Source of the DNA: Liolophura sinensis
Lineage: Eukaryota > Mollusca > Polyplacophora > Chitonida > Chitonidae
DNA: 64,000 bases
Assembly: GCF_032854445.1 (NCBI RefSeq)
Contig: NC_088299.1
Location: forward strand, 2,457,001-2,521,000
Direction of reading: 5' to 3'
Every line of letters begins with the position of its first letter. Positions within the stretch are counted from its first letter, which is position 1. Below, one piece after another: positions 31,095 through 61,936 of this stretch. The notes beneath the pieces were generated by a model. That model saw only the letters and a program-made list of their open reading frames with translations, had not been told where the DNA came from and searched no databases. A program made the translations under genes and the position numbers.

Positions 31095-34000
31095 CTGCAG
31101 GTATAAAATCAGGGCAAAACTAAATAACAAGTTGTACACATGTATGAAAAGACAATATCAAATTATGTATTAGCATACGAAAACTGTTAATCTCTACAAT
31201 TGATCAAAGAACTTGTCTTAGACCGGTAATCTCACGACAGAGAAAATTACCACACTTTTCTCAAGTACGACTGTAAATGACTAATCTCTTGATGTCAAAT
31301 CTCAGTCAAAATAGCTTTAGACCGATTCACGATATTCGCAAAGAGAGAAAAGCCGTGTTAGCGCATTAAACCCGGCTTTATTTCAAACTTACCACGGATG
31401 GAGAAGGAAAGAGATGTTCATGAAGAAGGCGAAGGAGAGGAAACCTTTGAATCCGATTTTACTTTGAAACTTACCTAGGATGGAGAAGGATAGAGAAGTC
31501 CGCGGCATGGATTTATTCAGGATACTCATGAAGAAGGCGAAGGAGAGGAAACCTTTGAATCCGATTTTACTTTGAAACTTACCTAGGATGGAGAAGGATA
31601 GAGAAGTCCGCGGCATGGATTCATTCAGGATACTCATGAAGAAGGCGAAGGAGAGGAAAACCGTGACCGCCAAGGACATCTTCTCTCCAGATTCAGGGGG
31701 GAGCACAAAGTCAACAACATTCAGGAAGGAAAACAGAAGGACAGGAATTATCACCGTCAGGACGTAGAACGTCTTCCTCCGACTCAGGATCATCGAGAAT
31801 TCGACCATCACTGTGCTCTCGCCCGGACAGCACTCGAAGCTCTGCTCCGTGCGCTGAGACTTGGTAGAGATGACGTCCCACTCGCCGCTCTCATCGTAAT
31901 CCGCCAAACTGACGTTCCCAAGGGGCACGACGTCCACTTCACTCACGTCATACATCCAGGTACCCATCATGATGGTACACGTCTGCGTGTCGAAAGGGTA
32001 GAGGGTGATATCCACAGTGCAGTGGGTGTGAAAAACGTCTCCCGGAGACCATTCCACCATGCCGTCGTAGTCGAGACGGGCCAGATAGTCACCGGTCTTG
32101 TACTTTGTCATTCTCTCATAGCTGCCAAGGCAAGGAATTAGTTTGTTTGATTGATTGATTAATTAATTAATAGATTCTGCTTCATTCATAAAACCGCCAC
32201 TTTTATATGAGTGAATATTGTCCGGTTATTACACCCAAACACAAAAAATAATGTACAGATTATTTATTCCACATGCATGTCTACATGGCTCCGGATATCT
32301 GGCGCTACTTTCGAGACATCAGCATCTCAGAAATACAAGAAATTGCCTCGCAATAGACACACAGCTGTTCTAGACCGCGCATTTGGGCATGGGGCATTTC
32401 ACTCACTTGAGGCAGTGGAAAGCAGACGATGAGGTGAACGATAACACGGGTAGGTATAGGGAAATGACGCATTGGACGAGATGCTGAGAACTACGGCTGA
32501 TAATAACTGGAAATTATTACGTTGTGTTGGGTTACAGCACAATCTGCACATCATATGCATGAGTTACGCATCAGGCACGTTGGGGCGAGTAAAACAGCAA
32601 ATGCCCGGATGCCCGCGACCTCAAATAACCTTTTGGCTAACCTTACCACACTTTTAGAAACCTAACAAGAGGTCCATGAAACCTGGACAATGAGTTCTCG
32701 TCCATCTCGTCCAAGTCTCATTTAGCTAGGGCATGATCATGGGTTTATTGTAATAGTGCATATTCTAATTCAGGTGTTGCCAGGGATACCGGAGGGATTG
32801 ACGTCATACATGTAACGTCATGCATGTCCACAAGTCAAGTGACCAATCAGAGCAGAATAATCTAACAGAGAATTGTGACAATCATCGGACTTGGTCAGGT
32901 GCATTCACATGTTTGACAGTAGCTCTAGCGTGAATCGGCAGTCAAACCAGCAGGAATTGTCATCGTCAATAAAGAACCCATAGCAGAACTTTTGGCTAGA
33001 CAGACAGATGAGAGGAAATTACACATATTGGCCTATATCCCCAAATCTGTCCACCACAAGCCATTTTGTCGCCTCTAGTTTCGATCTACTCTTTCCGATT
33101 CCATGGAAGCCAGTAGTTTCCACTCGACATCCCTTGGTCCCCACAATATCAAATACTTTTACCCTTGTATAGACCAGAAGGGGAGCACATGTAAAATCTA
33201 GCGCTTTGAACAAACTAACCTGTTGGAGATGGCGATGTCTGGTCTCCAGACTTGGGTAGGAGCCACCAGTATTGAGGACACACCGTTATACATAGCCGGG
33301 TCCCATTGTAAAAAATCATCGCTCCATTCCTTCAAGAATGAACACGTTAGCATATAAGGCACAGTGCCCTTTGGGCTACAGAATTAACACATTAGCATAT
33401 AAGGCACAATGCCCTTTGGGCTACAGAATTAACACATTAGCATATAAGGCACAGTGCCCTTTGGGCTATAGAATTAACACATTAGCATATATGGCACAGT
33501 GCCATTTGGGCTTCAGAATTAACACATTAGCATATAAGGCACAGTGCCATTTGGGCTTCAGAATTAACACATTAGCATATAAGGCACAGTACCATTTGGG
33601 CTACAGAATTAACACATTAGCATATAAGGCACAGTGCCATTTGGGCTTCAGAATTAACACATTAGCATATAAAGCACAGTGCCATTTGGGCTACAGAATT
33701 AACACATTAGCACATAAGGCACAATGCCCGCTGGGCTATAGATCTGCAGTTTAGATTAACCACGGAGAATTAGTGTACGGATTACGAGGAGATAAACAAT
33801 ATATGTTTTGGAATTACAAGCAAAGGACCTCGTATGGTAAGGCGAGGAATCGGACCCAGTGCAAGAAACTGCGGACCTCGAGTAGCGAAACTGATTATAG
33901 TTGTGAGTGACAGCTGCTGACACACTCATGAGGCTACTTGCTTTTTGAGTTCCGTTTTACTCGTCTTTTCCATTTATATGGCAAGCATGCAGCTTATAAA

Positions 34001-36107
34001 GCTCCAAACATGCACTGAAGCGATGTATAGGTCATAAAATCGAAAAATTGTATCCAATTACTGTTACACTGAAATATATATAATTTTTTTTTGTATTAGG
34101 CACTGTAGAGTTATGAAAATCACTGCACTACAAATGTAACTTTCTGAAAATTCTTGAACACGAAGTTATGCATCAATCAATTAAATAAATATGTAACAAA
34201 TGTAACTTTCGGCCTTATACTTTCTCTACACATAACATGTTAACATTAATGATAGCTAGTCTACCATATGTGCTCTCAACCAGGATTCACGTATGATATC
34301 GCTATAGGTGGGAAATCTAATTTTGATTCATTATAACACTTATTTAATGCAAGGTTGGGTCTGCCTGCAACCTGCGGATGGTCGTGGGTTTCCCCCGGGC
34401 TCTGCCCGGTTTCCACCCACCATAATGTTGGCCGCCGTCGTATAAGTGACATGTTCTTGTGTACGGCGTAAAACACCAATCAAATAAATCAATAATGCAA
34501 GGTTGCCTTTGTCTTTACTCAAACAAAAGTACGTTTTCAAAGGAAAAGAAACAGCCACAAAGATTCGAACTTTTCACCCATATGCAGCATTTTTTCCTCA
34601 ATGACTTTGTTAGTCCACTGTACTGTGGTGGATGCCTGATAGACCCTGGCAACAGTACAGATTTTAGACCAGATAAAATATGACAAAACTCATCAGATTA
34701 TAAAGTTTATGTTTTACATATGAAGACAAATGTTAACCACAACGAAACTTTGACAGCACGTAGAAATACATGCGTGAAAGTTTCAGTATAGATATTTTTC
34801 TGGTTAACGTTGATCTTCATACTGAAAATTAAAAACACAGTGCCTCGTTTGAACGATAATTTGGTGTTTTTGATCGAGAGTGCATTTTTGGAGAGTTATT
34901 ACTAAGTAACCATCTCCTTTATGGCATTATAACTTTCATGAGTGCTTCGACCAAGTCTTATACTTCTAGTTCCGACATTTGCAGAACTGTGTTGGGATTT
35001 TGAAATTTGCACTTTCTCATTGTACCTCTCTGGGGCCGATTCTCCGCCTTACTCTACCAGGTCCTTTATTAGGTTGGGAGATGAAAGACAAACCCAGGGC
35101 TAGTGAGCAAACTATACGCATTGACAAATATCCAGAGGTATTTTCTAATTAACACTTCAGATGTGCTGGTGACATGCAGGCAAAATATAACTACTGCTCC
35201 AATCGTCCTAAATACGAGTTTATTTAGTGTTTTATTTATTTTGAAACAAACAGACCAATGTCCACCACCAGGCTCGATGAAAATAACCCTTTACAGTACT
35301 TGTGGTGATAAAAAAGACAAAGAAAATACATAATAGTACTGACAGACAATATAATGCAGCAGTGCCATAATTATACCAACCTATGTAAAAACAATCTGAA
35401 AACGCAGAATTATAATCAGATGCAGTAAAACTTTGATTACCAAGTACACACCATATAAAGCCAAGCCGAGAAGGAGAATTCCTGTTCTTTCTCATCCTGA
35501 AAAAAAAAGTTGAAAAAATAAGACAATATTTTGCACTTAGAAGGGTTTTTTGTGGAAAATCAGCATACTATTGGACGAAAGCTGTGGCTGCGACTAACAG
35601 TGTCTTCAAATACACAAACAGATAATGAATTCAAACACAAATTAACAGATACTGGATTCAAGTGCACAAACTAACGGAAACTCAATTCAAATACACGAAT
35701 TAACGGAAACTCAATTCAAATACACGAATTAACGGAAACTGGATTCAAAAGCACGAAGCGGGATTGGTAATATCAAGCCCACAACTCTTACATTTTAATT
35801 AACACATATTTTTTTGCTTTCCTCCATTTATTGTTAGGGTACACTTAAGATTTCATATAACCATGTCAGATGCGTAATGTTGAGTAACTGTCCACTCAGT
35901 CTCTAATCGTTCACCTACCAACTGATGAATATACATGAGGTAAACGTTAACTCCAACTGTAATGGCGTGCGATTGATTCTTGACAGGTCGCACGTGCTTA
36001 GTGTAATTGGTGAAGAGGTCTGTTTGAAGCCGCTGTACATCTTCATTACTATAACCTTTGACGGTTGCCATGGCGATCAAAACTGTGAGAGATAAAAATT
36101 GAATCAT
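30661..36107 (-). CDS. Nicotinic acetylcholine receptor-like subunit, alpha-type (receptor gene 1)
   Basis: Ligand-gated cation channel subunit of the Cys-loop family, expected as a plasma-membrane pentamer. Exons on the minus strand: 36107-35919, 35496-35452, 33329-33220, 32121-31583, 31094-30661. The join is 1,317 bp, 438 aa, with GT-AG ends and consistent phases. Seen in order: N-terminal hydrophobic signal (1-18); loop A VWRPDIAI; Cys-loop C149-X13-C163 (CTVDITLYPFDTQTC); vicinal C212-C213 in loop C, the alpha hallmark; M1 about 231-254; M2 263-280 preceded by GEK (Glu at -1', cation-selective type) with Leu 9' and Thr 6'; M3 about 296-318; a variable cytoplasmic loop; M4 about 415-435; stop TAA. 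The 45-bp and 110-bp exons are the classical nAChR exons 3 and 4. The ligand is not certain: many lophotrochozoan paralogues are untested. The start codon could lie in an upstream exon (see 37744). Confidence 0.9.
31387..31657. repeat. 108-bp tandem triplication across the exon 5 donor of receptor gene 1
   Basis: Three copies in minus-strand order: 31657-31550 (authentic exon end), 31549-31442, and 31441 to about 31387 (shortened). Each unit is about 76 bp of exon 3' end (from FLSFAFF in M2 to SILG) plus GTAAGT and about 25 bp of intron. Anchor TGAAGAAGGC recurs at 31421, 31529 and 31637, exactly 108 apart. Because 108 is 36 codons, the coding frame stays open through copies 1-2. Confidence 0.95.
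31583..32121 (-). CDS. Receptor gene 1, exon 5 (Cys-loop to M2)
   Basis: From the acceptor CCTTGGCAG to the first GTAAGT donor. Encodes YERMTKYKTGDYLARLDY through the Cys-loop, ECCPG loop C, M1 and M2. The open frame runs on past the donor to 31389 only because of the 108-bp duplication; the added residues are repeats of the M2-M3 segment. The first donor is chosen because it joins in frame to the M3 exon and matches the junction in receptor gene 2. Confidence 0.92.
33220..33329 (-). CDS. Receptor gene 1, 110-bp exon 4
   Basis: Encodes EWSDDFLQWDPAMYNGVSS, then the loop A region ending VWRPDIAISN. The AG of the acceptor is at 33331-33330 and the donor GTTAGT begins at 33219. The frame enters at phase 0 and leaves at phase 2. 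The size equals that of the corresponding exon in receptor gene 2. Confidence 0.93.
33330..33740. repeat. 45-bp tandem array of the exon 4 acceptor (about 9 copies)
   Basis: Unit begins at the AG of the authentic acceptor. Read on the minus strand, each unit holds TATATGCTAATGTGTTAATT (branch-point-like CTAAY), a short pyrimidine-rich step and a CTGTAG or CTGAAG end. Copies repeat every 45 bp from 33376 on. The copy at the exon has one extra base (46 bp). The plus-strand 138-codon frame across it (33338-33754) is an artefact of a 15-codon unit without stops. Confidence 0.93.
34358..34492 (+). mobile_element. SINE family A, 5'-truncated, with 13-bp target duplication
   Basis: Contains only the 3' half, from CTGCAACCTGCGGATGGTCG to the CAAATAAATCAA tail. 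The direct repeat TAATGCAAGGTTG flanks it at 34345-34357 and 34493-34505, so it inserted already truncated. It lies in receptor gene 1 intron 3, between the 45-bp and 110-bp exons. Confidence 0.9.
35452..35496 (-). CDS. Receptor gene 1, 45-bp exon 3
   Basis: Fifteen codons, DEKEQEFSFSAWLYM, between a TTTTTTTTTCAG acceptor and a GTGTGT donor. The motif matches the DEKNQ-type beta1-beta2 strand at this position in nicotinic receptors. Too short for ORF callers; identified by splice signals, size and homology. Confidence 0.9.
35606..35756. repeat. 29-bp tandem array in receptor gene 1 intron
   Basis: About five copies of a unit such as AATTAACGGAAACTCAATTC followed by AAATACACG. The two central copies are identical. 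It lies between the first and second coding exons and does not touch a splice site. Confidence 0.85.
35919..36107 (-). CDS. Receptor gene 1, first coding exon
   Basis: Codes for MIQFLSLTVLIAMATVKG as a plausible signal peptide, then NEDVQRLQTDLFTNYTKHVR, PVKNQSHAIT and so on, ending HQL before GTAGGT. A strong acceptor-like run (TTTTTATCTCTCACAG) lies inside the exon and ends at 36083. If used, the start would be in an upstream exon and translation would enter at 36082 in the same frame and phase (1) as exon 2 of receptor gene 2. Confidence 0.8.
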
Positions 36108-37320
36108 CCAAAACTCGTAGATGCCAGCCGTTTAAATGGAACCTAGTAAACATTAAATTCTTTCTCTGTACTTGGTTGTAAATAGAATAGAATTTGAATT
36201 TGATTGACAGTGTAAAATGGGACACAATAGACATATTGTATCTGTATTCCCTTTTTGTTACAGAAATTCATCCAGGTCGTATCCGTTATGGGATAATCGG
36301 TATCGACAGCCATAGTAAATTTATGTATTTATTACGCATTGTTGTTACCTGGCGAACATATGCTGTCTCAAGCACATCGAAACAGACATAGGGTGAGTCC
36401 AACATATATTTTGCGAGAAAAAATGAAATCTGAGAACGGACAAATATAGGGGAAATATATTACATTGAATGTAAATTATTTTGTACTGCCACTGATCAGT
36501 GGGTAGTTCACATCTATCAGACGTTATCACAGGCTATATCTTGCCAGATGTGCATATAGTTGACAAACAAGAGCAATCCATTCTTGAACTATCACCATCA
36601 AAACCTTGACAACTTACTGTTCGTTTAAAAATGACATTGTTCACTGTTTTACTTTCCCTGAATTTCGCATAAATTGTAGAAATGTAATTGTGTTAACTCC
36701 GTTATATAATATCGTTATATCGGCGTTTGATCAATGGCAGCAAGGTAATGGACCGTGGACGAGTGGTTAGGGTGGTTAAGTGTAAGGAGGTGTGGGCTTA
36801 AACCCGGTCCAAGACACGGAATTTGTTAGAGACCACCTCTCTTCTTTCAGTATACTTATTTGGCTGGTCTTTACTCCGTACTCAAGAACAAATACCAATA
36901 TATAAGCACACCAAATTAGTGGAGAGCAAATTTTCTTCAACGAACGTTAAAATGCAAAAACAGCTCACATAAACGTCGTCTGTCGTTTATTGTCAACAAG
37001 TCTTCACAAGCTGTGGTCGCTAGGGAATCCACAAATTCCCTGCACAATGCAGGGTTTGAACTCGTGTGTTCCAGCGCTTGAAAGGCAAGGATCATTAATC
37101 CCTTTCACGGCTCGTTCCCTTGTCCTTAGATGTTATCTCCACAACAGTTACTTCTTGTCAATCCACCCTTACTGAAAGTATTGCTGGAGACACCAAGAAC
37201 ATACAGTTTCGAGCAAGTATCGAAAAATTAGATATTCAGTTTTGGAAATGATGACGTCACAAAGGCTTTCGATCAGAACTTTGTTATCCATCATGCATAT
37301 GTCCAAAGGACACTGCACTA
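36108..37320. other. Upstream flank of receptor gene 1
   Basis: Would hold the promoter and 5' UTR of receptor gene 1 if translation starts at 36107. A degenerate tRNA-like head is seen at 36750-36840 on the plus strand (GGACGAGTGGTTAGGGTGG). No core promoter motif could be assigned. Confidence 0.4.
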
Positions 37321-37645
37321 GTTCTAATACCGGCTGCAGTCGCGTAGTTGATAGAGTGTCTGCCTCTTAAACGGTGGCTCCCGGCTTCAATTCCCAATCG
37401 AGTCATTTACCCGAGACCTTAACATTGGTAAACATAGCTTGGCGCTCTCTATATACTCGAAATGGATCAAGTACTTGTCGACGCGGTGTCAGTATAATGT
37501 GATTTGGTGCACTGTAACTGGTGTATTCGGCATAGCGTTCCAGTGAGGCAGCATTAAGAATATATCGACACTGTGTGCGGCCTGCTATAAGGAGACATCG
37601 TCATAATGTTAAAAGTGACCTTAAACCCCTATCAATTATGCAGCA
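37320..37645 (+). mobile_element. SINE family C/D, full-length but diverged
   Basis: tRNA-like head (CGCGTAGTTGATAGAGTGTC, then a B-box-like GGCTTCAATTCCCAATCG), the CTTGGCGCTC block, GTGTCAGTATAATGTG, GTTCCAGTGAGGCAGCA and a CTTAAACCCC end. It combines parts of C and D and supports their relationship. Confidence 0.7.
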
Positions 37646-37743
37646 AACAAACAAACTAGTTCTGAAAAACACAAGTGTGTAACAGTTGTTAAAACGCATT
37701 TTACCTCAATAATAGCGCTGATAAAAATGTACTGTGAACTCAC

Positions 37744-37801
37744 CTATAAATACCCGGAGTTTTCTTCGAGCCGGGGCCCACACACTCGCTATGAAATCCA
37801 T
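37744..37801 (-). CDS. Possible alternative first exon of receptor gene 1
   Basis: ATG at 37801 opens 19 codons plus one base (MDFIASVWAPARRKLRVFI) before a GTGAGT donor, a 58-bp segment. It would splice in phase to the cryptic acceptor at 36083. The size and phase equal those of exon 1 of receptor gene 2 (58 bp, phase 1). The encoded N-terminus is a weak signal peptide, hydrophobic only after joining. Chance is a real possibility. Confidence 0.25.
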
Positions 37802-38892: not shown

Positions 38893-39175
38893 TGAGATGT
38901 GTGTACATATAATGTTTCGTCTTAAGAATTGTAACAGGGCGAGTCCATGCCGCCAAAGTACTGCTGCCACTGAAGTACCATGCCCAAGACACCAGACATG
39001 ACACCCAGTCACATTATACTGACATCGGACAAATCAGTACCGTTTCCTTGTTCTAAACTATCAGTGCTGAGCGCCAAGCGAGGCAGCAAAAAGTGCCAAT
39101 TTTACGTCTTTGGTATGATACGACTCGGGTTTAATCCCGGGTCTCCTGAATTCGAGGCGGATACTCCATTCGATA
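38893..39175 (-). mobile_element. SINE family D, most complete copy
   Basis: Contains ATGTACACAC-type end, CAGGGCGAGTCCATGCCGCC, CTGCCACTGAAGTACCATGC, CAGTCACATTATACTGACAT, CAGTGCTGAGCGCCAAGCG and, at the right, a reversed B-box-like GGGTTTAATCCCGGG with GAATTCGAGGCGG. Defines the family used for the other D calls. Confidence 0.75.
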
Positions 39176-39424
39176 AATAGACACGACAAATCGCAGTGTA
39201 GACGGTTTGTCCTATCTTCATTGAACTATTCGAATTCGCTATGGCAAATCACAACAGGTATAATAAGGTCAAGGCAATGTCGTAACTCCAGGCAAAAAGA
39301 CAGCCACATTTAATTGTGCATGTTCAAAAGACAAATCTGGGGGATCATTTAGTGGATGGCATTTTCCTTCTAGGTACATTTAAAAGAGTGTTTATTTATG
39401 TATTTATGTACATAATTTATCTCG

Positions 39425-39480
39425 ACTGCAGTGCGTAATTGTTCCGCGATAGCACGCTAACCACTAGGCCACGGAGATCG
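39425..39480 (-). mobile_element. SINE family A head fragment
   Basis: The right end (GCGATAGCACGCTAACCACT, AGGCCACGGAGA) is a reversed tRNA-like head of family A. The body to its left is unrecognisable apart from a TTTATTTATG stretch. Confidence 0.5.
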
Positions 39481-41201: not shown

Positions 41202-42078
41202 GTCCTATTTTCTGATTTAACGTCACAGGTTTTCAATTGTATTTTCCATGTTAGCCATTTTCCCCTACTAACAGAATGAACCGGACGTCAAGACATTGTC
41301 GTAAAACGTGTAGTGTTAATCCAAGGAATTAAATCATTTTTATAATATTAATCAGCATTTTATTATCAGAGATAATAAATGGGTCACAGAGACAAATGCG
41401 CTTGTAACATTTTCTGTGGAAATATCCAATGACATGAGAGTATTACAATAAACAAATGATAAACAAAATGTAGTATTATGGCTTGCATGTAACCTTCTTG
41501 TAACAATCATTACAAAGCAGTTAACGAAGTTTAGCCATACTTGAAAAACTGGTAAAGGCGTTAAATAAAATGGACCAAATTTCAGATGTCGCTTCGAATG
41601 GTTAATGTTTCTTGAAATCAGCCGAGAATTAAAAAAGAGTTCCGAAAAATCATTGTTACGTCCGTCATGGCTGAGTAAACATATAATTCCGTCTTGAATT
41701 CACAAGATCATTTTATTTCGAATGATGTGTTGGCCTACAGGAAAAGTCAATGTATTATAAAAAGGGGCATAACACGGGCGTAGATTTTAAAGTGACGTGA
41801 TTCGTGGCATGTATAGGTGGCATAAAAACAGAAAGTGAATCTATATTCTATAGATATGATGGTAACGCCGAAAATATTTCGGACGGACGGATTGAAGGAC
41901 AAATCCGTATAATAAAATCTGTTAGAAACACTGCTCTATTCCAAATCGTGCATATCCGAGCACTTTACCAATCACCGGCAATGATTAACAGACAACGATA
42001 ACATGGGAAGGAAATGAATAACATTGGCTATTTCTGAGAAATATTGCTAAAAGCAGCTTTTTAATTAACGAAGAATGT

Positions 42079-42464
42079 TCAGGAAGTAGACAACAATAGG
42101 AGTACAACTACGGCGCCAAGAACAGTCAGTAAAAAAGATGCCTGCAACATGGCTCGATTACATGTTTCAGCCAGTCGGCTGTTTCCTAGAGGCCTGTTCT
42201 GAGGACAGACAAGTATAGATAAACTTTTACCACTCTCTGGGTCAATACGGAAATCGCCAGAACTTTGATGATGACCCTCGTTCAAATCCTCAATTCTATA
42301 TACTTTCGACATTGCTTTGCGTAACTTCCGCTTCCTGTCACGTGCTGGTGGCGTCATCTTGTGATCATTTACCTGGGCTTTAGCCTTGGTGTGGACGGCA
42401 ATGGTGATGGCTGACAAGCAGACTGATGCCGCCCCCATACCCATAACAACCAATAGGTAAATAC
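42079..42464 (-). CDS. Receptor gene 2, last exon (M3, loop, M4)
   Basis: Starts after TCTGTTTCAG in phase 1 (Gly), then IYLLVVMGMGAASVCLSA for M3. A basic stretch RDRKRKLRKAM follows in the loop. The C-terminal M4 is LLTVLGAVVVLLLL. The upstream Met at 42510 is in the intron and is not the start of anything. Confidence 0.92.
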
Positions 42465-45400
42465 CTGAAACAGAGAATACAACATACATTGAAATACTAG
42501 ACACCAGCATGTGAATACCCGAAAAAGTGAATACAGTCGAATCTGCGAAACTGCAAAAAATTCCTGTGTATGTGAAAAAGGGAATACTGAAGGATATGTG
42601 AGAAACAGAGGGTAAATATCAGTGTATCTGAAACAAGGTATACAGCCGGATATGTAAGAAAAAGAGGGTAAATACCAGTGTATCTGAAACAGGGTATACA
42701 GCCAGATATGTGAGAAACAGAGGGTAAATATCAGTGTATCTGAAACAGGGTATACAGCCAGATATGTGAGAAACAGAGGGTAAATATCGGTGTATCTGAA
42801 ACAGGGTACACATCCGGATATGTGAGAAACAGAGGGTAAATATCAGTGTATCTGAAACAGAGTATACAGCCAGATATTTGAGAAACAGAGGGTAAATATC
42901 AGTGTATCTGGAACAGGGTATACAGCTGGATATGTGAGAAACAGAGGGCAAATATCAGTGTATCTGAAACAGGGTATACAGCTGGATATGTGAGAAACAG
43001 AAAGTAAATACCAGCGTGGCTGAAACAGGGAACATAGCAGGGTATATGAGAAAGAGCGAGTGAAAACCAGTGTATCTGAAACAGGGTATACATTAGGATA
43101 TGTGAAAAGCTGAGAGTAAATGCCAGTGTATTTGAAGCAAGGGATACAGCAAAATATGTGAAAAATCAGTTTTTCAATATAGTGAACGATTAAATATAGT
43201 TAGAGCAGCAGCCGACGCCATCGATTTCTGCACAAATTCAAATGGAAATGTTACAAAGTCGGCGACGCTCGTTTGGCTGAGTGCACAGTCTTTAACCTTC
43301 GTTGAAGACCAGTTGTCTTTCATCCATATATGGTGTGCATAACTGCATGCACGTAACAGGCGGAAAAGTTCGTCAGTAACTTGCCAAAGTTCGGTTTACC
43401 CCTGGCCCGCCTTCCTCCCCAGTCAAACTGAGCATTGTTGTATAAGTGAAAAAGCTTTGAGAATAGGGTTAAAGGACAAATAAATAAATAAATCCATTTT
43501 TATATGTATTTGATTGGTGCTTTACGCCGTACTCAAGAATATTTCACATACACGACGGCGGCCAGCATTATGGCGGGAGGAAACCGGGCAGAGCCCGTGG
43601 GAAACCCACGACCATCCGCAAGTTAAAGGAAGGCCTTCACACCTATCGCTGAAGAGCAAGCCAGAAAGAGCTGGACCACACTGGTGACAGCCTCCTGGAT
43701 CATTTCGAAGCGCTGGCGTGCTGATCACCTCGACCACGGAGACTGTAAGTAAATAAATAAATATTTTATTTATTTATTTATCTTCAACTGTTTAACAATT
43801 TTGTGTTCTTACTCACCTAGGATAGGCGTGGAGGCGGATGTCCTGGGCATGGAGTCATTCAAGAGGCTTATGAAGAAGGAGAAGGAAAGGAAGACCGATG
43901 CTGAGACAGTCACTTTCTCCCCTGACTTCGGCGGCAGTACGAAACCGACCACGTTGAGGAAAGCGAACATGAGGACGGGCAGGATGACGTTCAGAACGTA
44001 GTACGTTTTCCTGCGGGTGAGGAGCAGGTTAAACGTGACGCTGACGGTGACGGGGGCGTCAGCGTTAGGCTGGTACAGGTGCCTCACCCTGTCCATCCCC
44101 GGGGGTTCTTTAAGGACCCACTCGACGCTGGGCTGGCAGAGGTCACTGTTCACGTACTCCGGCCAGAGGTCCACTTCAGCCTCCGACGACATCCAGGTGG
44201 CCAGTGTGATGTTACAGGTTTGAGCGTCGAACGGATAATAGGTGACGTCCACCTGGCAGTAAGTTCTGAAGAAATGGCCAGGCATCCAGTGGACATGGCC
44301 ATCGTGGGACACGCGCACTAAATTGTCATCACTGATAAAATCTGATAAATCGTCAAAACTGAGTGGGGAAAGAAACAAATACACTAAATAACTAATCTGT
44401 TAATTTTAACAGAAAGTCTGTTGTCTGAGTAATGTGAGAATGTATTCTGTTTTCACAACACAACACTCCACATATTCAACATCGTACATCCTGTTAGTGT
44501 GATACATATTTTATGTTAAAGTAACAGAATACATGTGTGCTATATATTTAACAGAATACTGTACAACGACAACAGAATACATTCTAGCATCAATCAGACA
44601 ACAGGCTTTCTGTTAAACTGGACCGATTATGTTTTGTGAGAGTACGAGTTTCAAACAATCAGTTATACTCATTGGACACGTCAAACGAAATGATCAAAAC
44701 ATGCGCTTGGCGTAACGTCAATTTTATTGGTGTTTTACGCCGTACTCAAGAATGTTTCACTTATACGACGCTGGTGGAGTGACGGATGGTGGGAGGAAAC
44801 CGGGCAGAGTTCGGGGGGAAACGCACAGTCATCCGCAGGATTTTGGCAGACCTGCAAACGTACGGTCGGAGGGGAACCCAGTATAAGCTGAATTTGAACT
44901 CACGGCCACCGTAATGGTGATCGCAACGGTGGGTATTGGGCCGTTAACCCCCTCTGCTACGGAACTCATCACCCCGCCGTAACGTGAATGACAACATATA
45001 TATTACAGTTCTTAGATAATGTGCTTGAGGTTACAATGCCACAGCTTTGTAGAAGACTCGGGTCAGTTTCATGAAGTATACTTATGTTAAGTAGGTCTTA
45101 GCTAAGTACACTCCATACCCCTACCTCAATCAAAACGCCTATTCTATATATTCTAATGTTAGGCCTAATATCGGGCTCCGAACAAGCCTTGCTGGTAAAT
45201 GATCAACTGCTACCTGGTAGTGACTTCTATTCCCGACCCTTGAATTAGTCTTGTTGGTAAGTGGTGAACGGTTACTTGTTAGTGACGGCTATATCGGGTC
45301 TCAAGACCAGACCTGGTGGTATAAAACGGGATGGTTACCTGTTGGTGGCGGCTATATCGGGTCTGTAGACAAGGCCTGGCGGAATAACGTGAGATGGTTG

Positions 45401-48400
45401 CCTGACAGTGGCGGCTATATCAGGTCTCTAGACAAGGCCTGGTGGTATAAGGCGAGATGGTTACTAGTTAGTGGCGGCTATATCAGGTCTCTAGACAAGG
45501 CCTGGTGGTATAAGGCGGAATGGTTACTTGTTAGTCACGGCTATATCGGGTCTCTAGACAAGGCCTGGTGGTATAAGGCGGAAGGGTTACTTGTTAGTCA
45601 CGGCTATATCGGGTCTCTAGACAAGGCCTGATGGTACAAGGCAGAATGGTTACCTGTTAGTGGCGGCTATATCGGGTCTCTAGGCAAGGCCTGGTGGTAT
45701 AAGGCGGAATGGTTACTTGTTAGTCACGGCTATATCGGGTCTCTAGACAAGGCCTGGTGGTATAAGGCGGAAGGGTTACTTGTTAGTCACGGCTATATCG
45801 GGTCTCTAGACAAGGCCTGATGGTACAAGGCAGAATGGTTACTTGTTAGTGACGGCTATATCGGGTCTCTAGACAAGGCCTGGTGTAAGGCGGGATGGTT
45901 ACGGCTATATCGAGTTCCTGTACATGGCCGGGCGATATAAAGGAAAATGATTACCAGATAGTGACGGCTATATCTATCTCCAGACAATGCGCAGCGGTAA
46001 GTGCAGAACGGTTACCTTTTAGTGACGGCTATACATAGGGTCTCCAGACAAAGCCTGGCAGTAAGTGGAGAATGATTAGCCTACCTGTTAGTGACGACTA
46101 TATCTAGACAAGGCCTATAAGCGAAAATGTTTACTTTCTAGTGACAGCTAAATCGGGTCTTCAGACAAGGGCTGGCGGTAAGGATAAATGGTTACCTGTT
46201 AGTGACAGCTATATCGGGTTTCCAGATAAGGTCAGACCGCAACAGCAGATGGTCAACCTCTTCGTACTCGGACTTGTTCCAAGTTAATAAATCGTCATGC
46301 CATTCCTACAAATATTACACACAATAAAAATTCAGCACTTGGGAAGGTCTGACATGCAGTAATCTGCTTATGGTTGGGGGTTTCCCACCAGGCTCTGTCC
46401 GGTTTCCTCCCACCATAATGTATAAGTGAAATAAATAAATAACTAAAAATTTATTAACTCTATCGGTATCCAGAGGCTAGAATTCATAGAATTGTAGTAT
46501 GTTTGAAATTGTATAAATACAAAACATACAAATATCTTCACTGTTAATCTCATACCCAGGAGCGTCCCACCAATGCGGTGGCTGTGAGTTCAAGTCCAAC
46601 TCATTCTGGCTTCCTCTCCGACCGTAAGTGGGAAGGCCTGTCACCAACATGCAGATGGTCGTGGGTTCTGCCCGGGTATATGCACCCAACTGATGTCTTT
46701 TCTCATATTCATTTAACTTACATTTATAAGTACAACATGAATTGTGCTATGGGGGGGGGGGGAGGGGATTACCTTTAAGCCCCATTCACAGGTTCACATT
46801 TGTCGCACCAAACTGATTGACAAAATGGCCCGGGACAAACGCCATGTCATACAATTGGTAGAATTCGACAAATTACATTGTTGAAATATACACATTACTA
46901 ATTCTATTTTCATCCATGACGTTGTCAATTGTCAAGGCTTCACAAAACCTCTAATATAGTTTGTTTCTTTTATCTTGTCGCCTGTATTCAACACTCTGTA
47001 AAATCAGTCATACTCGCTACCAAAATTGCGTTTCGTCAGTGACACGTAACGCCATAAGCTCTATACACATCGATATGTTGGACGTCCATATTATTGTAAA
47101 CAAAATGCTGTTAGAATACTTTCTAACTCACAATTCCATATGTTTGGTCTAGGCAACAAGAAATCATTGGTGACGCTATAAATATTCAAAACAAGTGTAT
47201 AGACCTACCAACAGAACCCTCTCAAATGTTTTCTTTGCGTTGTGTGGTGCAACTTATTTTAAATACAATCTAAATATACTGTAAATTTTATGATAAAAGT
47301 GAAATATTCACTTACCAAATCAAACCAGGCAGAAAAAGCAAACTGCTGTTTCCTTTCCTCCTGAAAAGAAACATACAACGCAATTGACGTTTATATGGTT
47401 ACTCACTGTTAATTAATAACCATAAACTGTTGCGTCCTTTCTTTATTTTATCCTATTCGATTCGGAACAGCAGATAAAACCTATACTACAACCTGGGGCC
47501 CGTTATTCTAATGGGTATTAAAAGTTTAGCTTTCAATACCAGTCGTCTAATGCAAAGCCAACGGAACTAATAGTATATGCATCAGTGAAAACAATAATAC
47601 CAGACTCTTTAGAATAACTGGCACATGTTACATAAAATCACGTAATATACCATTTAGTGCTTCTCGCCATTAAAAACAATAAGCCAGATTGCGCATAGCT
47701 CCACATATACTCAATATTTACTAAAATCACGACAAAAAAATAATGCATACATGTGCGCGGCTATCTATTATGCGATGCGTACATTTACATAAATGAGATT
47801 TGTAAGGAATACGTGTATTTGAAAATGGCAAACAATATTCTTTGTATTAAGTGTCTGACTTATCATAAAGAAGAACCAGTTATTGAAGGCCTTGTTCACG
47901 TTTCGATCTTATTGTCACATTAACAGTTTCAGACACTCATATATACTGAATGAGTGAGTGAATGAATGAATGAATGAGTGAATGGGTGTGTGGGTACATG
48001 AGCTATAATGGCTTCGCCAGATCGGCAGTATTGCACCCATATCGTGGTGAGAACACGCAAATTCTATTACCACGTATAAGATGTATAGGCCTACACCGCA
48101 CATAGGATTGGAAATGACAAAGTAATGGATTGATTTGAAATGTCGATGTTTCAATTATTATAATCACCTTACCAGACTATGAATAAACATAAGGTGCGGG
48201 CTAACCCGGACCAGCACCGCCTCTGTTTGGTTGTACACAGGCCGGATGCTCGTGTTGTACTTCCGGAACAAATCATTCTGAAGACGGAAAGTTTCCTCTA
48301 TGGCGCTGGTTCTACATGTGCCTACTTGAAGAGATTCAAAAATAAATCAGTATATACCTGCATGGTATCACAGAGAAGCATTCAGATGCTTTTTTTATGG

Positions 48401-52056: not shown

Positions 52057-52200
52057 ATGTATGCCATTCACAAGCAGTCTCACCCTTCTACAGGGATAGA
52101 GCATGCCATTTACTGTAACTTCTTCTCCCCCAGGGAGAAGAACCTGGTTACAGCTGGTGTTAACCAGCTTCATGTATACAGACTGTTTCCAGATGTTGAG
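52057..52200 (+). CDS. CPSF1: CPSF1 exon 1
   Basis: Starts ATGTATGCC after an upstream acceptor-like TTATTTTCCAG at 51991-52001, so the first noncoding exon is probably further 5'. Encodes 48 residues ending YRLFPDVE before GTAAAG. Confidence 0.93.
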
Positions 52201-55200
52201 GTAAAGGCCTTAGTGTAATGAAAACCAGTACATCTACATATATTATAAACCAAACTTGCATTTCAAATGGGAGGCCTCTGTGGTCTAGGTGATTAGCCTG
52301 ACGTCGACGCGCAGTGACCCAGAAGCCTCTCACGAATGCGGTCGCTGTGAGTTCAAGCTCAGTTCATGCTGGCATCCTCCCTGGCCGTATGTGGGATGGT
52401 CTGCAGCTACCTGCGGATGCTCATTGGTTCAGCTGGCCTCTGCCCGGTTTCCTCCCACCTGAATGCTGTTCGCCGTCAAGAAGTGAAATATTCTTATAGT
52501 ATTATATAGTATGGTGTATAGCAATAAACAAAGTAAATTAATTAATCATTTCAGATGGCCACCATTTCTCGGTTTAAATGTCACAAGATCTCACAGTACA
52601 CCGAAGCTGAGTGCTCATTTTCACTCCGAAGTCTTTGCTCTAACCTTGCGGCAACATGCTTGCTACATTGAGTTTCCGTTTCATTGAAATTCTACATTGG
52701 AATCAAATTGTGTACCAGTTCACAGTTCCATGTAGAAAATGTTACTTTGAAATGTTGCTGATTTATTGGCCTTGGAAAGGAGCTACAGCGTTAAACTTGA
52801 AAGCCATCTGTCCAGGACGGAGTGCAAATTTGACCATGGCCATTCTGTTGTATTGGGTGTGGTAGAGCACTGCCTGGAATGCTAATGTGGCTTTAAGAAG
52901 TGTAGCATTCTTCAATATAGCGGAAAATTAATCAAAGAAAGAAATAATAGAACTATTAAAGCGTTCTCATCCCTGCTGTGTGTTAAATGTTTTCATTTTA
53001 AAGAAAAGATGTGAAAATAAACTGTTGTAATGTCTTAAGTTTAATACTGGGTTATTGTTTTAATGATATGGTATTTTGTCATGTTACAGGCTGAAATACC
53101 ACTTGATACATTAACAGACAAAGGTAAGAAGTGTGGTTTATCTTTCAATGATAATATTACTTGAAAAATATCAGTTATATGAGAAATGAGTCCATTGTCT
53201 GTGTAGTCCCCATGGGAACAAGTTTAATACAATTTTGCGATTTTTGGCAAAGAAACTACAACCCTCTAAAGATGGGACAAACACAAACTGTACACCTCTT
53301 TCGGATAAGCCATGTTTTAAACCTAAAATTAGATGTATGATTTGTTAACCAATAAGAATACAAAACTCTTGACAGTCCTTGTACATCGCAGATTTGGTTG
53401 TGGGCAATGGTTGCACAGAGGAGTATGTAAATCTTCTGTGTTATATGAATATGGAAATATATGAAAGGCTGTAGAATATTACCTCCAAACACAGAAAAGT
53501 TCAAGGTTCAAGTAGATGGCTTTCGGTTGAAAATGGTGTTGATCAAATATTTGCATTCATACTTTGTTGAGTATACTGGTACTCATTTACAAATTGAACA
53601 GTTCATGAATATGATCAAGAGAGTTTTTAAATGTTCTGATCTTTACAGAGTTTTTTGGGTTAAATGTGGTTGAGATTGTTAATATATTTGAGTTATATAT
53701 TGTTTGACCACTTCAGCTGCAGCTTAAAGTGAAGAGGTTTGTCATGTACTTGGTAAAGATTGATGAAGTACACAGGAAACTTAGATCCCCTAAACTCATA
53801 AACTTGACCGCCATTTTTTTGAAGCGAAAGTTCTTGAGTATGAGGTAGAGCGGTACATCAAGGGTCAATCCTGGGTCGAGTCACACAAAAGACTTTGAAA
53901 GAGGAAGTTGCAGCTTCCTCTCTTGGCGTCCTGTATGAAGGGGGATAGTGCAAGACTGGTTGACCCATATCAGTGTAATGGCTTAGGCGGTGCGGCTTAC
54001 TTACCTTTGGTAAGGCGTCTCAGTGAAGCAGCACTAGATAAAAGAACATGGGAAATCTGTCCTGCAACAAGGAGGCACATTACATGCACTCTAAGGATTC
54101 CTTCATCGTCATATGACTGAAAAATTGTTAAGTATGACATTAAACCCCAAGCACTCACTCACTGTTGAGTATGACATTAAAAACCATTTAGATTCATGGT
54201 ATGAATTGCTAGTTTTGTCTTGGTCTTTCAGATCTTCAGGGAAAGAAGTGTAAGCTAGAATGCTTAGCTTCCTACTCCCTGTTTGGGAATATCATGTCCA
54301 TGCAGAGTGTGAAGCTGGCAGGTGCTCACAGAGATGCCTTACTGCTCAGCTTCATGGAGGCCAAGGTACAAGATATCATATGTGGTCTTATGTGTATCAT
54401 CAAAAGTCCATTACCTACAAGTATGCAACTTCCTTATAGCTAGTTTCCATGGCACTTACTTCGACTTCTACGCTTTTCTTCAATCTCTAACACATTTATG
54501 TGTAACGCATCTGCGCAGCCAAATATTTTTTCTCTCTGTTGAACATCAAACATTTGAGAAATGGCTGATGCATGGTGAGAAAAAATGTTCCAAACACTGT
54601 TGTGTTAAAAAATTATGTTAACGGAGAGTTATGTAAACGGACAACAGTGTCTTTGATAGTTATGGTTTTAGAGTTAGCTAGGAAATATAAAAATAGTCAC
54701 TGGGTTTTTAATTGCATAGCAAGAATGATTAGAAAAATCATAGTTCTTGTAGGAGCGGTTTACATTAGATTTCCCATGACTCACAATTTCAACCCAAGAG
54801 GTTGGCATACTTCTTTAGTAGGTGGCTTGAGCTTCTACAGATGATGTAACATGTGTACAATGCCGTAGAGACTAGCTGTAAGGGAGTTGCATATTTCTAG
54901 TGGATGGACTTCTGGTATCACTGTTGTTGTCTTCGGGGTGAAAAGAATAGGAAACGTATAGCCAGTAGTCAGGGTTGTTGTGAAAAATGACTACAAACCT
55001 GGGGCCGTTTTCATAACATTTTGTTCTGGGCGTACCAAGCCCCTATCACAAAAAATAGGGTCACCCTGATCAGTCGGATGGGAATTCTCTTTATTGTGGC
55101 TGATCAAAAAGGTAGGATTTTAGAAAAATTAACATTGTAAGAGAAATAAAAAAAAGTCTATTAAATCCGAATTAAACCTTTTCAGGTGGACCCATTTTTG

Positions 55201-58200
55201 GAGGGTCGGTCAGATTACGCCCAATATATTTAATGATAGCCTAGTAGAGCTCTCCCAAATGGCGTCAGTAAACAGAATACACCCTCATTTATATTTAGCC
55301 GTAATGGTGTTCTCCACAGGGCTATAGCCCTGTATTAAATGTTGTGATAACATTATTGGTGATGCTGTAATGTTCATGACACTTTACAACTCACAGGGAT
55401 ATTGTATACAAACTTAAATTTAAGAGGTTTTTGAAATATTAATTGAGTTTTGTTTACCTGGTTTTAAGTATGCTTCTTTTTGTTCTGATATTGAATTCTC
55501 ATGTAAAAACCCTCGTTCCTGGTGAGAAAATATTCTTGTCATGGTCGTGACGGTATGGCTGAAACGCTACCACACTAATGTGGCATTAATCCCAAATTAA
55601 TTATTTATTCTCCAGTAACATTGTAGCTCTCTTAGATTGAGAGGTTGCAATGCCTCAAAATGATTTAAGGACTTGATTGTTGTTATCGTTAGTATGTTTC
55701 ATTAATATTTCTGGCTAATTAGTACACCCTTTGAGTTAAAGACCTACTCCTTTAGAAATACAGGTATTTGTATCCACTGCTTTAGAAATACAAGTACTTG
55801 TATCCATAGCTTTAGAAATACGGGTACTTGTATATCCACTGCTTTAGAAATACAGATACTCATATCCATAGCTTTAGAAATACGGGTACTTGTATCCACT
55901 GCTTTAGAAATACAAGTACTTGTATCCACTGGATTAGAAATACAGGTACTTGTATCCACTACTTTGGACATACAAGTACTTGTATCCATAGCTTTAGAAA
56001 TACGGGTACTTGTATCCACTGCTTTGGAAATACAAGTACTTGTATCCATAGCTTTAGAAATACGGGTACTTGTATCCACTGGATTAGAAATACAGGTACT
56101 TGTATCCACTGGATTAGAAATTCAGGTACTTGTATCCACTGCTTTAGAAATACAAGTACTTGTATCCACTGGATTAGAAATACAGGTACTTGTATCCACT
56201 GCTTTGGAAATACAAGTACTTGTATCCACTGCTTTAGAAATACGGGTACTTGTATCCACTGCTTTGGAAATACGGGTACTTGTATCCACTGCTTTAGAAA
56301 TACAAGTACTTGTATCCATAGCTTTAGAAATACAAGTACTTGTATATCCACTGCTTTAGAAATATGGTTACTTGTATCCACTGCTTTAGAAATACAAGTA
56401 CTTGTATCCACTGGATTAGAAATACAAGATATTGTATCCACTGCTTTAGAAATACGAGTACTTGTATCCACTGCTTTAGAAATACAAGTACTTGTATCCA
56501 TAGCTTTAGAAATACAAGTACTTGTATCCACTGCTTTAGAAATACGAGTACTTGTATCCACTGCTTTGGAAATACAAGTACTTGTATCCATAGCTTTAGA
56601 AATACAGGTACTTGTATCCACTGCATTAGAAATACGGGCACTTGTATCCACTGCTTTAGAAATACAAGTACTTGTATCCACTGGATTAGAAATACAGGTA
56701 CTTGTATCCACTGCTTTGGAAATACAAGTACTTGTATCCATAGCTTTAGAAATACGAGTACTTGTATCCACTGCTTTGGAAATACGGGTACTTGTATCCA
56801 CTGCTTTAGAAATACAAGTACTTGTATATCCACTGCTTTAGAAATACAGGTACTTGTATCTACTGCTTTAGAAATACAAGTACTTGTATATCCACTGCAT
56901 TAGAAATATGGGTACTTGTATCCATAGCTTTAGAAATACGGGTACTTGTATCCACTGCTTTAAAAATACAAGTACTTGTATATCCACTGCTTTGGAAATA
57001 CGGGTACTTGTATCCATTGCTTTAGAAATACCAGTACTGATACATGCAGGTCTGTATCACTATGCCACAACATGCATGTCCAAATTTGATAGCAAAAATG
57101 TTGGTCCTACTGGCCAAATTTTCACATCTCTTCCTGACCAGATGGTTAGATAGGCCGAATTGAACGGCCTCTGCATACTACATTGTTAACCTACTCATTG
57201 TAATGAGGAAATTTTATTTTCATACACAGTTGAACTGAACTTGGCTACATTTAGAGCCATTTTAGCTTAGAGAATGTTTGGACTCCCAGACTAGTCAAGC
57301 TGTATTAAAACCATCATGTGAATTAAACAAAAATATGATTGTTTGCCAATAAAAAGTTAAATTGTCGTACAAATTTCTTTCATCCACAGGCTATAAAGCT
57401 CTCTTAAAGTAGCATTTTGAGTTTTAATGTATTAAAATTTCTTTATATGTCTGTTCACAATATGAAGTTCGGTCTCAGAATCTTCTGTTCATTTCTAGAT
57501 ATGGCCCCAGTGTTACTTCTTTGATGACTTTGTGTATCTGTTTTATCCATGTCTTTAATTTGTTTGTGTGTGTTGTCTACAGCTAGCCCTTGTGGAATAT
57601 GACCCGGGCACTCATGATCTGAAGACGTCATCTCTCCATTATTTCGAGGACAGTGAACTCAAGGTTTGCAATTATTAACTGGTATAAGAAATATCTCTAA
57701 TATATTTATAATGTATTATAATGATTTATTTATTATATTTGCTCCTAAAAATATCCTTTTTAGGCCAGGTCTTAGGAGGAGAACAGTATTATTAAGGCTG
57801 GACAACTTTTTTTGGCCATTCATGCACCACATGTACTTGACGTGTATTACATTATCGTAAATATCTGCCACACTGACAATACTCCGTGCACCAACCATGT
57901 CACTAAACCCTGTCCCCAGGAGGGTAAGCTTGACTGTCAGGACCTGCCGCTGATCCGCGTGGACCCAGATGGACGCTGTGCCGCTATGCTGATATACGGT
58001 CACAAGCTGGTGGTGTTACCCTTTAGGCGGGAGGTCAGCACAGATGATACAGATACAGTCATGGGATCCAGGTATGATCGGGCAACCATAAGATTCAGTC
58101 ATTCTTCTCAGAATTTCCCTTGAAAGATTTAAAAATGCATTGATTTAGGTCTGAATACTTTTTTTTTTTAATTTTGATTCTTGAGTAGAATTTTAGACAC

Positions 58201-61200
58201 ATATACTAATGCCTTTCAAAATTATTCAGTATCTTTGTTTTTTTTTTGGGGGGGGGGGGGTGTCTGAGTGCCCATATGCAGCCACTTTTTAGCAACTGCA
58301 CTTGAAAAAAGTTTACTTCTTCTGCCATGTTTGAAATCAGTGGACCCCCAAATATTTTTCTGATTAGATCTCTGGAATGGTAATTTGAGTATGTGTAATG
58401 TTATAAAATGCTAACTCAATAGGTCATGGACACTGCACATCAAAACAGTGTTGCAAGCTTTCAGATGTTTATATGGGGGTCATCTCTGAGACCGTGAGCT
58501 GTGATACCTAGGAATCCGACTCTCATCGGTTTAGATGTGGTCATATGTTAGGGTACTCTGGTGTGCAAGAGGCAGTGGTTGTGGCCATTGTCGTGTATAA
58601 AGGGAAGTACTATATTTCACCTTAGAGCAGGTGTTCTGGAACATGTGACACATTTTGCTTGATTCTGATTGATGGATCCATCTTAAAGAGGATTTATTTG
58701 AAGTTTGATTAATTTCTTATCAGAAAAACTCAAGTGTAGGCATCAAAAGTATCATTTTGAGCCCTGTATGTGCTCCTGAAAGTGCCTTTTTACATACCAA
58801 ACTGTAGCAGAAATAAATGTTTTGAATACGATGTGATACATAATAAATAAATTATGCAAATACAAACCTCTGTCAGTTTAGGTGGGATGGTTTACATTGA
58901 CTATCATTTTTAGTAAGAGCCATGTTTTTTGCACCCTCTGTTTCAGCAAACTTTTAAACAACTTTTCATCATGTTATTTTGAAAACAAATGACTAGATTA
59001 AAATATTTTTTTTTCTTTTTTGCAATTCAGCAAATCTCCAATTATGTCGTCCTACATCATAGACCTGAAGAGGCTGGACGAGAAGATCACAAATGTACTG
59101 GACGTTCAGTTTCTACACGGTTACTTTGAACCCACGCTCTTCATCTTGTATGAACCTCTTAAGACATGGTCTGGGTAAGGACACGCCCACAGATTTACAC
59201 TGTTGGTAGAAACACTACCTAGCTACACCCATGCAATAATTAAAGCTCGGTCGCGATTTCTGGTGATAGTGATCATTTTCCTCTGAGTTAAGTTGAATGC
59301 CTTACGCTAATTTTGTCCTATAATTACTTGTACCGGTAATTGAGAAATATTCTTGTTCAATAAGACAAGACTATCTCATAATCTATCCAGTGGGATCTAG
59401 AATGATAAAAGTTGGACTTTCAGCTCAGCACAAAGTGCTTGTCAGTGACAGGCTTTAGGCTCTACCCAGTCCTTGAAGTTCAGGGGAATTCCATTATAAA
59501 GACACATCGACAGTCGGCTGTGAATGATGTAAACAAATGTAAAGCAAATTCTGACTTCGTTACATATTAAAAGCGAGATTTCTAAACCTCGACAACATAT
59601 GGTTGAAAAAGACCAGTCGAACAGATCCAAATAAACCTTTCAAAACAACTGTGGGAAAATAATATTTTTCCCAAATTGTCTGACTACCTCGCTTTAACTT
59701 AATGGGTGTGTCCTCGGACCTTTATTGTGGCACTACTTTTGACACAAGACTGAGTACAATGACATGATAGACTAAAGGGAGATAATCTTCTGCTCATGTG
59801 TCAGTTCGAAAAAATAAAAGAAGTAAAGAACTACAAAGCTCCAAGCTTGATCTCTCACATGTCGGAGAGCTTCCTGTAAACTAAAAGTTGTTCAAATAGA
59901 AGATTGTAAGACTTGTTTACAGAAAATATTGTAAATGCCTTTAAATTCGCGTGGTACTAACACTCACGGATTTCGCGGCAAACACAATTCTGTGAAAATA
60001 AGTGCCATCAAATATAAAACCCATGTAAGTAATTTATTAACGTAGCATGCGTTACACTTTTGTTAAAAAGCACTACAGTTCTAATACGTTTTCAAACACG
60101 TTAATTAAAAATACCTAACTAGAATGTATTCCTGCTTTCACGAATCCAGCTTAACTGATCGTCAGTTAATCTTGCTTTCTTTTAAGGAGGCTTAGCTCGG
60201 TATAAGTATCGCCACAATGCGACGTTGTTGTTGTTGATTTATTGCCGTGGTTAGAAACATACCAGTTGATAATCTGTACTGGGCGTGTGTATGTGATAAG
60301 ATATACATACAATGAGAGAGGCTGTTTTTTTTATTGACTGTACTTGCCTTCCAGTTAGATCACCTTTCCAACGCACCCAATACATTGCTCAGGGGTTTCT
60401 GCACTTTAAACTTCCTTTTCATAATGATGATTTCTGAGAAATTTGCTCAAATCTGTCACAGTTCACTTAAAGTTTTACTCACACTGCTGATGCATGAGAA
60501 TTAAACAGTGGGATTTATTTATATCACATTTAATCCTTCGTCATCTCCCAGAGTGAGTGACACAAATATTTGCTCACTCAGCAGGTAAGGGTTTCGTTTT
60601 ATAAAGATTAACATTCTTCAAAAGATTAAAAGCTTAGGAGGATTAACTTCCTTTGTCTGATCAAGGTACTGTGTTGTATAAAATTTTTGTCACATCCTAC
60701 AGGTACAGACAAGTTTAAATGATCACATTGTTACTTGAATGCTTGAGTTGTTTTATAACTTGCTTTTTCTGTATTGAAGTTTGATTTTCGTTTATCAGTT
60801 GTCCAATAATTCTGTTAAGATCCGCGAAAGTTGATTCCCACGAATGTGTCTTATTACCAAATCCGGGAAAATTTATACCCGCAAATAAAAAGCCATTTAC
60901 AGTAGTACGTTTAACACTGATGTTGCGGTGATAATGTATCACCTTCAACAGAGTAAAGGTCACACCCAGGAACAAGCTATAAATACACCATGACCTACTT
61001 AACTGGTTCTGTTAAGTTTAACTTTCAGGAATCACCTGACAGTTTTGAAGTTAGTTGATAGGTTTTATTAACTGTGTGTTTTTTGTGTGTTACAGCCGTA
61101 CGGCCGTCAGGACAGATACCTGCTGCATTGTTGCCATTTCCCTGAACATCCTGGAGAAGGTTCACCCGATCATCTGGTCACTCAGTAATCTCCCTTTTGA

Positions 61201-61936
61201 CTGCTTCATGTCACTGGCTGTCCCAAAACCTGTGGGTGAGTGTTGATACTGAGTAGTCTCCCCTTTGACTGCCTAATGTCACTGGCTGTGCCAAAACCTG
61301 CGTGTGAGTGTTGATACTGAGCAAGCCCCCTTTGACTGCCTAATGTCACTGGCTGTCCCAAAACCTGTGCCTGTGGGTGAGTGTTGATACTGAGTAGGCT
61401 TCCTTTGAATGGTTCGTAACTGAACTTGAGTGTGTTATTAATTTATTTATTTGATTGGTGTTTTATGCCATATTGAAGAAGATTTCATTTTCGAGACGAG
61501 CCTCGGAAAACTGACAGACCTTATATATAGCCTCTTTAACAACAATCAACAAATAGATATATCCAAATATATAATATAGCATGTTATTTTTCCTGTGTTG
61601 CAGGTGGTGTGTTGGTGTTTGCGGTGAACTCACTGCTCTACCTCAATCAAAGCGTTCCTCCATACGGTGTTTCTGTCAACTCTATACCGGACTCCTGCTC
61701 ACAATTTCCTCTCAGTAAGATTTACTTCAGACATACTTTTGATTGTCTGTAGCTTAGATGATAACTTTATACAGAGATTATTCTCTGACTGATATTAACT
61801 GGTAAAGAAAACCGCAAAGGAAACCAATGACACAAGGAAACTTATGGTACAAGGAGAACATAAAGGAAACCAATGACTTGAGGAAATCCTGAAGGATGCT
61901 GGTACGAAGAAACTTTGAAGGAAACAAATGACATGA

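Follow-up and report, generated by a model that had tools for sequence, protein, structure and literature searches.

Five minisatellite arrays lie against exon-intron junctions in a 64,000-nucleotide stretch of the Liolophura sinensis genome (hereafter, the window, i.e., the whole stretch of DNA analysed), and their units resemble the junctions themselves. The question raised by this locus is whether such arrays are built from the splice sites they abut, as a preliminary description of the window proposed, and whether splice junctions recurrently seed tandem duplication.

Genes in the window

The window holds two paralogous nAChR genes, which have a common exon structure, and the 5' part of CPSF1, in agreement with the earlier placing of the arrays in two receptor genes and one unrelated gene. 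All junctions, in the window as in the genome sample described below, were taken from protein-guided gene models, not from transcripts. nAChR gene 1 (30660..36128, minus strand) was modelled with five exons at about 36128-35919, 35496-35452, 33329-33220, 32121-31583 and 31094-30660, and nAChR gene 2 (42075..48330, minus strand) with five exons at about 48330-48173, 47360-47316, 46305-46196, 44358-43817 and 42464-42075. Open frames result from splicing both models. Both genes matched Pfam receptor domains, the last-exon piece of gene 2 taken alone having no Pfam match. The gene 1 product matched solved nAChRs in a PDB search, one entire minus-strand frame had no match in PDB, and all eight gene 2 junctions were recovered from the gene 1 protein with our own spliced-alignment script.

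For CPSF1 (52057..63114, plus strand), the models place the first nine exons at 52057-52200, 54240 (or 54255)-54365, 57583-57663, 57941 (or 57920)-58071, 59031-59174, 61096-61235, 61604-61714, 62164-62257 and 63027-63114, and the gene continues past the window end. These exons matched human CPSF1 (PDB). Two methods differed by 15 and 21 bases in the acceptors of exon 2 and exon 4, respectively, with no array affected.

Several repeats of other kinds were seen in the window. A broken LINE-type retrotransposon lies on the minus strand at 22639-25912, its endonuclease, reverse transcriptase and RNase H fragments being split over separate open frames. A dispersed SINE-like repeat, which we take to resemble a molluscan SINE, has many copies on both strands (e.g., 3106-3276, 8380-8630, 21213-21474, 43496-43741 and 62550-62846), and a 320-bp dispersed repeat, 87% alike, is found at 16651-16972 and 53848-54163. 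Receptor-intron sequence at 44386-44453 and 44523-44637 matches window positions 6041-6152 in both orientations, perhaps as an inverted-repeat element.

Tandem arrays at splice junctions

Searching with TRF at a score above 130 gave seven minisatellite arrays in the three genes. Five of them have the unit lengths originally reported (45, 56, 63, 67-68 and 108 bp). The other two, absent from the preliminary description, are counter-examples with no junction origin: a 29-bp array in intron 1 of nAChR gene 1 (35628..35757, minus strand) and a 30-bp array in a CPSF1 intron (55746..57038, plus strand).

The 108-, 63- and 68-bp units each consist of an exon end, the real 5' splice site and the intron start. 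The 108-bp array (31366..31659, minus strand; TRF 31418-31659) covers the exon 4 donor of nAChR gene 1, where the exon ends at 31583. In addition to the authentic copy, it has a near-identical one (donor 31475) and a truncated one (31393), the copies being 99% alike according to TRF. The 63-bp array (45200..46253, minus strand; TRF 45266-45902 plus a 61-bp row at 46125-46253) covers the exon 3 donor of nAChR gene 2, the exon ending at 46196. It contains the authentic copy, another 15 matched ones (46135-45214) and a further unit that carries a deletion. At a 5' splice site of CPSF1 (last exon base 61235), the 67-68-bp array (61180..61411, plus strand; TRF 61180-61408) has two further copies, at 61303 and 61376.

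Two arrays lie next to 3' splice sites. The 45-bp array, with nine copies (33335..33742, minus strand), adjoins the exon 3 acceptor of nAChR gene 1, where the exon begins at 33329; its unit nearest the exon ends 5 bases before the exon, and its copies of the splice signal require a 1-base gap. The 56-bp array (42521..43165, minus strand; TRF 42566-43165), with about 11 copies plus degenerate sequence, lies upstream of the exon 5 acceptor of nAChR gene 2 (42464 being the first base of the exon), and its unit contains CTGTTTCAG. Its TRF edge is 102 bp from the acceptor, and the gap holds a degenerate copy (27/40 bases, 54 bp upstream). The proposal that all five arrays are built from their own splice sites, three spanning 5' sites and two spanning 3' sites, was therefore sustained for the three 5' arrays; the 45- and 56-bp arrays come near to it with degenerate copies of the signal, and they adjoin their acceptors without spanning them.

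Each of the five junction units had its best match, among the 33 modelled junctions, at its own junction. Random windows scoring as high numbered 0/3000 for four of the units and 1/3000 for the 56-bp unit. The five arrays occupy 996 of 1837, 645 of 1352, 217 of 488, 176 of 368 and 408 of 2122 bp of their host introns, and the suggested intron lengthening is thus plain in the sequence.

Chance tests in the window and in the genome sample

In a founder-level test, each array was reduced to one founding unit, which was placed at random within genes. The three clear straddling units in the window compare with 0.56-0.74 expected (P = 0.012-0.029 in three versions), and with the two doubtful acceptor arrays added, the P for five was 3.6e-5 to 1.9e-4. 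Plain position gave no enrichment in the window, a tandem copy (30/40 bases) being found near 3/33 junction cores vs 147/800 random gene positions. The window alone cannot decide on chance, because it was chosen for the pattern in the preliminary description.

Array-junction overlap was also compared with chance in a sample of the same 609-Mb genome, comprising 42 loci with 218,594 bases, 179 donors and 167 acceptors. The loci were the remainder of CPSF1, 28 further receptor loci of ~3.5 kb (30 less L014 and L015, the window genes), 12 compact kinesin loci and one Na/K-ATPase. The kinesin loci were chosen for compactness, so fewer arrays are to be expected there. TRF with a period of at least 20 and a score of at least 80 gave 30 arrays. 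Dropped before counting were very short CPSF1 exon calls (8 and 9 bp), one unsupported 51-bp call in the same gene, receptor and kinesin exon calls below 20 bp, and one false exon within the L054 array. Two donors, those of L024 (2032) and L050, were set by eye, and a rule of thumb located the exon-4 donor in 13 receptor loci.

Seven of the 30 sampled arrays were founded on a donor vs 1.41 expected (P = 3.2e-4), so in this sample founding segments are about five times commoner on donors than random placement predicts, an excess visible only after arrays are collapsed to founding units, which is our own model of array origin. Counting L032 as an eighth donor array gave P = 4e-5, and four other TRF settings without L032 gave donor P values of 1.7e-4 to 3.1e-3. 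Without one or both of the eye-placed donors (L024 and L050), six arrays (P = 0.0021) or five arrays (P = 0.011) were left. Acceptors had no excess, with one founder among the 30 sampled arrays vs 1.27 expected (P = 0.73). Plain position likewise gave no enrichment in the sample, as 7/179 donors and 1/167 acceptors were in arrays vs 9.0% of intron bases; the donor share is below the intron-base share because arrays expand in introns. The claim that junctions recurrently seed duplication thus stood for donors at the founder level, and it stood neither for acceptors nor by plain position.

By set, donor arrays accounted for 3/10 arrays in the CPSF1 remainder, 3/13 in the receptors and 1/7 in the kinesins (another 1/7 of the kinesin arrays being on an acceptor), and three of the seven sampled donor arrays come from CPSF1, a gene already flagged in the preliminary description. 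The kinesins alone showed no excess (1 donor array vs 0.53 expected, P = 0.43), and no array of period at least 20 was found among the 38 junctions of the Na/K-ATPase gene ATP1A.

The sampled donor arrays of CPSF1 have units of 72 bp (C5:2529881-2530227), 80 bp (C5:2549519-2549928) and 123 bp (C5:2557414-2558431), those of the receptors have units of 72 bp (L018), 26 bp (L024) and 23 bp (L036), and that of the kinesins has units of 34 bp (L050). The 49-bp array of L032 repeats an apparent receptor exon-3 end (PDIVLYN); its authentic copy must lie outside the locus, and it was counted only where stated. The sole sampled array with an acceptor inside has units of 26-27 bp and is found in L054, a kinesin that is presumably KIF11-like.

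L035 has a 40-bp array whose units include GTAAGT (gene sense, 433-551); it was not counted, as no modelled exon is tied to it. At a Na/K-ATPase donor, a 15-bp, 1.9-copy duplication spans the site (L056, gene sense, 519-547) and is possibly a nascent array. The sampled loci also include, in a CPSF1 intron and away from any junction, a 3.35-kb array composed of 45-bp units (L005:6973-10000 plus L006:1-324), and a receptor exon-4 donor that is apparently GC, not GT (L033:2005, gene sense). Two clusters of nAChR-like genes are located at G000:C7:48746719-48819042 and C8:26505386-26845753.

Origin and growth of the arrays

The homologous exon-4 donor of the receptors bears unrelated units of 108 bp (nAChR gene 1), 72 bp (L018), 26 bp (L024) and 23 bp (L036). 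At the exon-3 donor, the units are of 63 bp (nAChR gene 2) and 49 bp (L032). Neither of the window nAChR paralogs has an array at the donor where the other has one, and most paralogous receptor exon-4 donors in the sampled loci are without an array. Because homologous donors bear unlike units and the window paralogs lack each other's array, we infer that the receptor donor arrays arose separately and are of independent origin.

The 63-bp array contains a 158-bp exact repeat, 189 bp apart. When 13 of its copies were compared, the nine central ones were 86-100% like another copy and the four edge ones 62-76%. The exact repeat, together with the alike inner and unlike edge copies, fits growth by multi-unit exchange. 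Exact microhomology at the founding edges was rejected, as 0 bases were shared at the three edges inspected.

Decoy donors

The preliminary description expected chains of decoy splice sites, and GT is indeed retained in 74 of the 98 decoy donors scanned in ten donor arrays (the three of the window and the seven sampled ones other than L032). At least two of the 98 hits are misplaced, one in the 108-bp array being a half-unit hit and one in the 68-bp array being shifted by 6 bases. Based on ViennaRNA energies, pairing with U1 was weaker than at the authentic site for 71 of the 98 decoys, equal for 22 and better for five. Outside the window, the decoys scanned in the three CPSF1 arrays (15/15) were all about as strong as the authentic donor, and therefore strength cannot mark out the real donor there. 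The four decoys scanned in the CPSF1 80-bp array matched the authentic site at every one of the 33 scored columns.

Splicing from the next intact donor would introduce a premature stop in the window 63- and 68-bp arrays, the CPSF1 72-, 80- and 123-bp arrays, L036 and L050, and a frame shift in L018 and L024. Among the ten donor arrays read, the 108-bp array alone has a next decoy that is open and in frame, so an in-frame isoform is possible there, and use of donor 31475 would insert 36 residues. L018 was considered as an in-frame decoy and rejected, since its first copy is 73, not 72, bases on and the frame is shifted.

There was no clear selection on the decoys, with donor columns less diverse than flanks in six of nine arrays (means 0.18 vs 0.22). 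Selection on the decoy exon parts of the 63-bp array was rejected: the P of 0.023 with all ten copies became 0.18 without one edge copy. For exon- vs intron-derived columns of this array, column rotations were equally extreme in 30/63.

Discussion

The arrays are quite probably mirage-type minisatellites, in which a segment of the exon-intron border, mostly at a 5' splice site, was duplicated and grew into the intron with the exon-proximal copy used. In the course we propose, a segment of 23-123 bp across the border, mostly a 5' splice site, would be tandemly duplicated, and this duplication is visible in the sequence. Slippage or unequal exchange, in part by several units at a time, would then extend the array into the intron. 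By analogy with human F7, the spliceosome would pick the exon-proximal copy and read the decoys as intron, and the arrays would be tolerated for that reason. The decoys would afterwards drift, with no visible selection for or against their use.

Why donors are favoured is a separate matter. A tentative but plausible reading is that tandem duplication in this lineage has its mutational hotspots at 5' splice sites, perhaps via an event at the transcribed donor (pausing, nascent-RNA pairing), which would drive part of intron growth, the same conserved donor being struck repeatedly in paralogs. Somewhat less likely is that duplications start anywhere at an equal rate and that arrays at donors last longer, contraction onto a diverged decoy being selected against. 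Decoys do diverge in several arrays (the 63-bp edge copies, at 62-76% to the nearest copy, L050 and L024), and in most arrays a lengthened exon would run into a stop or lose the frame, so contractions could be harmful. However, longer survival predicts no donor excess among very young arrays (for which the sample is small), and some donor arrays look young, given the CPSF1 80-bp decoys identical over 33 columns and the 99% likeness of the 108-bp copies.

It is improbable that introns rich in minisatellites simply have some arrays falling on junctions by chance. The window P of only 0.012-0.029 for the three clear arrays, the position-level counts without enrichment, the 9.0% of sampled intron bases in arrays, the acceptors at chance level and the kinesins and ATP1A without excess would all fit such an account, but the donor founders (7/30 vs 1.41 expected, P = 3.2e-4, or 0.011 with five) were counted in sequence that was not chosen for arrays. 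Less likely again are functional arrays, whose donor-like chains would hold U1 snRNP near the exon and so aid recognition or block premature polyadenylation. The strong decoys of the three non-window CPSF1 arrays (15/15) are as expected for such a role, but 71/98 decoys pair worse with U1, donor columns are without clear extra conservation, and most paralogous exon-4 donors do without an array. An assembly artefact is very unlikely: copy numbers rest on one assembly, not on reads, and the copy number of amphioxus PGBD5 differed between two assembly versions (PMC3902484), but the copies here differ by substitutions and small indels, the assembly has contigs of up to 96 Mb, and like arrays with different units recur at unrelated loci.

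Reading the arrays as mirage-type minisatellites relates them to known systems, and the original paper on amphioxus mirages reportedly dates from 2002. The pattern was at first held to be undescribed, which is not so in general, as both the amphioxus mirages (PMC3087553, PMC3902484) and human F7 intron 7 (PMC6627357) precede it. Mirages are described as tandem repeats across the exon-intron borders of Adh3, the globins BflGb6 and BflGb9, troponin C and PGBD5, with units of 10-160 bp, AG/GT kept in many but not all copies, and central copies homogenised while cluster boundaries are not (PMC3087553, PMC3902484). Length polymorphism and somatic instability are further traits of mirages, and intron gain from them had already been proposed in the globin study (PMC3087553).

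The arrays reported here share with mirages a unit spanning the exon-intron boundary (three of the five window arrays, the 45- and 56-bp ones only partly, and seven donor plus one acceptor of the 30 sampled), the occurrence of both 5' and 3' boundaries (donor arrays and one clear acceptor array, L054), splice signals kept in many but not all copies (GT in 74/98 decoys here), and inner copies that are alike with the edges excluded (here in the 63-bp array only). They differ in that normal splicing of the amphioxus globin mirages was backed by RT-PCR, whereas our arrays are known from sequence alone, and in that single genes are described in amphioxus, whereas the present count yields a rate across the genes sampled.

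In human F7 intron 7, which has 37-bp repeats, the most upstream site alone is reported to be used in the normal condition (PMC6627357). In human paralogs within segmental duplications, internal tandem repeats (minisatellites) at exon-intron boundaries change gene structure (PMC2812944). The F7 study is experimental work on one gene, and novel introns and alternative transcripts are reported for the segmental-duplication paralogs, whereas ours are sequence-level arrays in several genes. The AGGT tandem genomic duplication model shares the copying of splice signals by tandem duplication; in that model (PMC3443670), an exonic AGGT is duplicated to yield a new intron, whereas both the donor copied here and the intron receiving the copies were already present.

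Among the literature matches listed (titles and abstract openings, mostly without a focus on molluscs), no such arrays were recognised in other animals, which is weak evidence of absence. New here are the frequency and donor bias of mirage-type arrays, in three unrelated gene families, as a first estimate from a small sample. If donor-founded arrays are a sizeable share of intragenic minisatellites (7/30 in this small sample), they would be a measurable source of intron growth. If common, such arrays would also be a natural experiment on how the spliceosome chooses among many equal 5' splice sites, and CPSF1, with its four donor arrays, makes the 'first donor wins' rule and the mirage model of intron gain directly testable.
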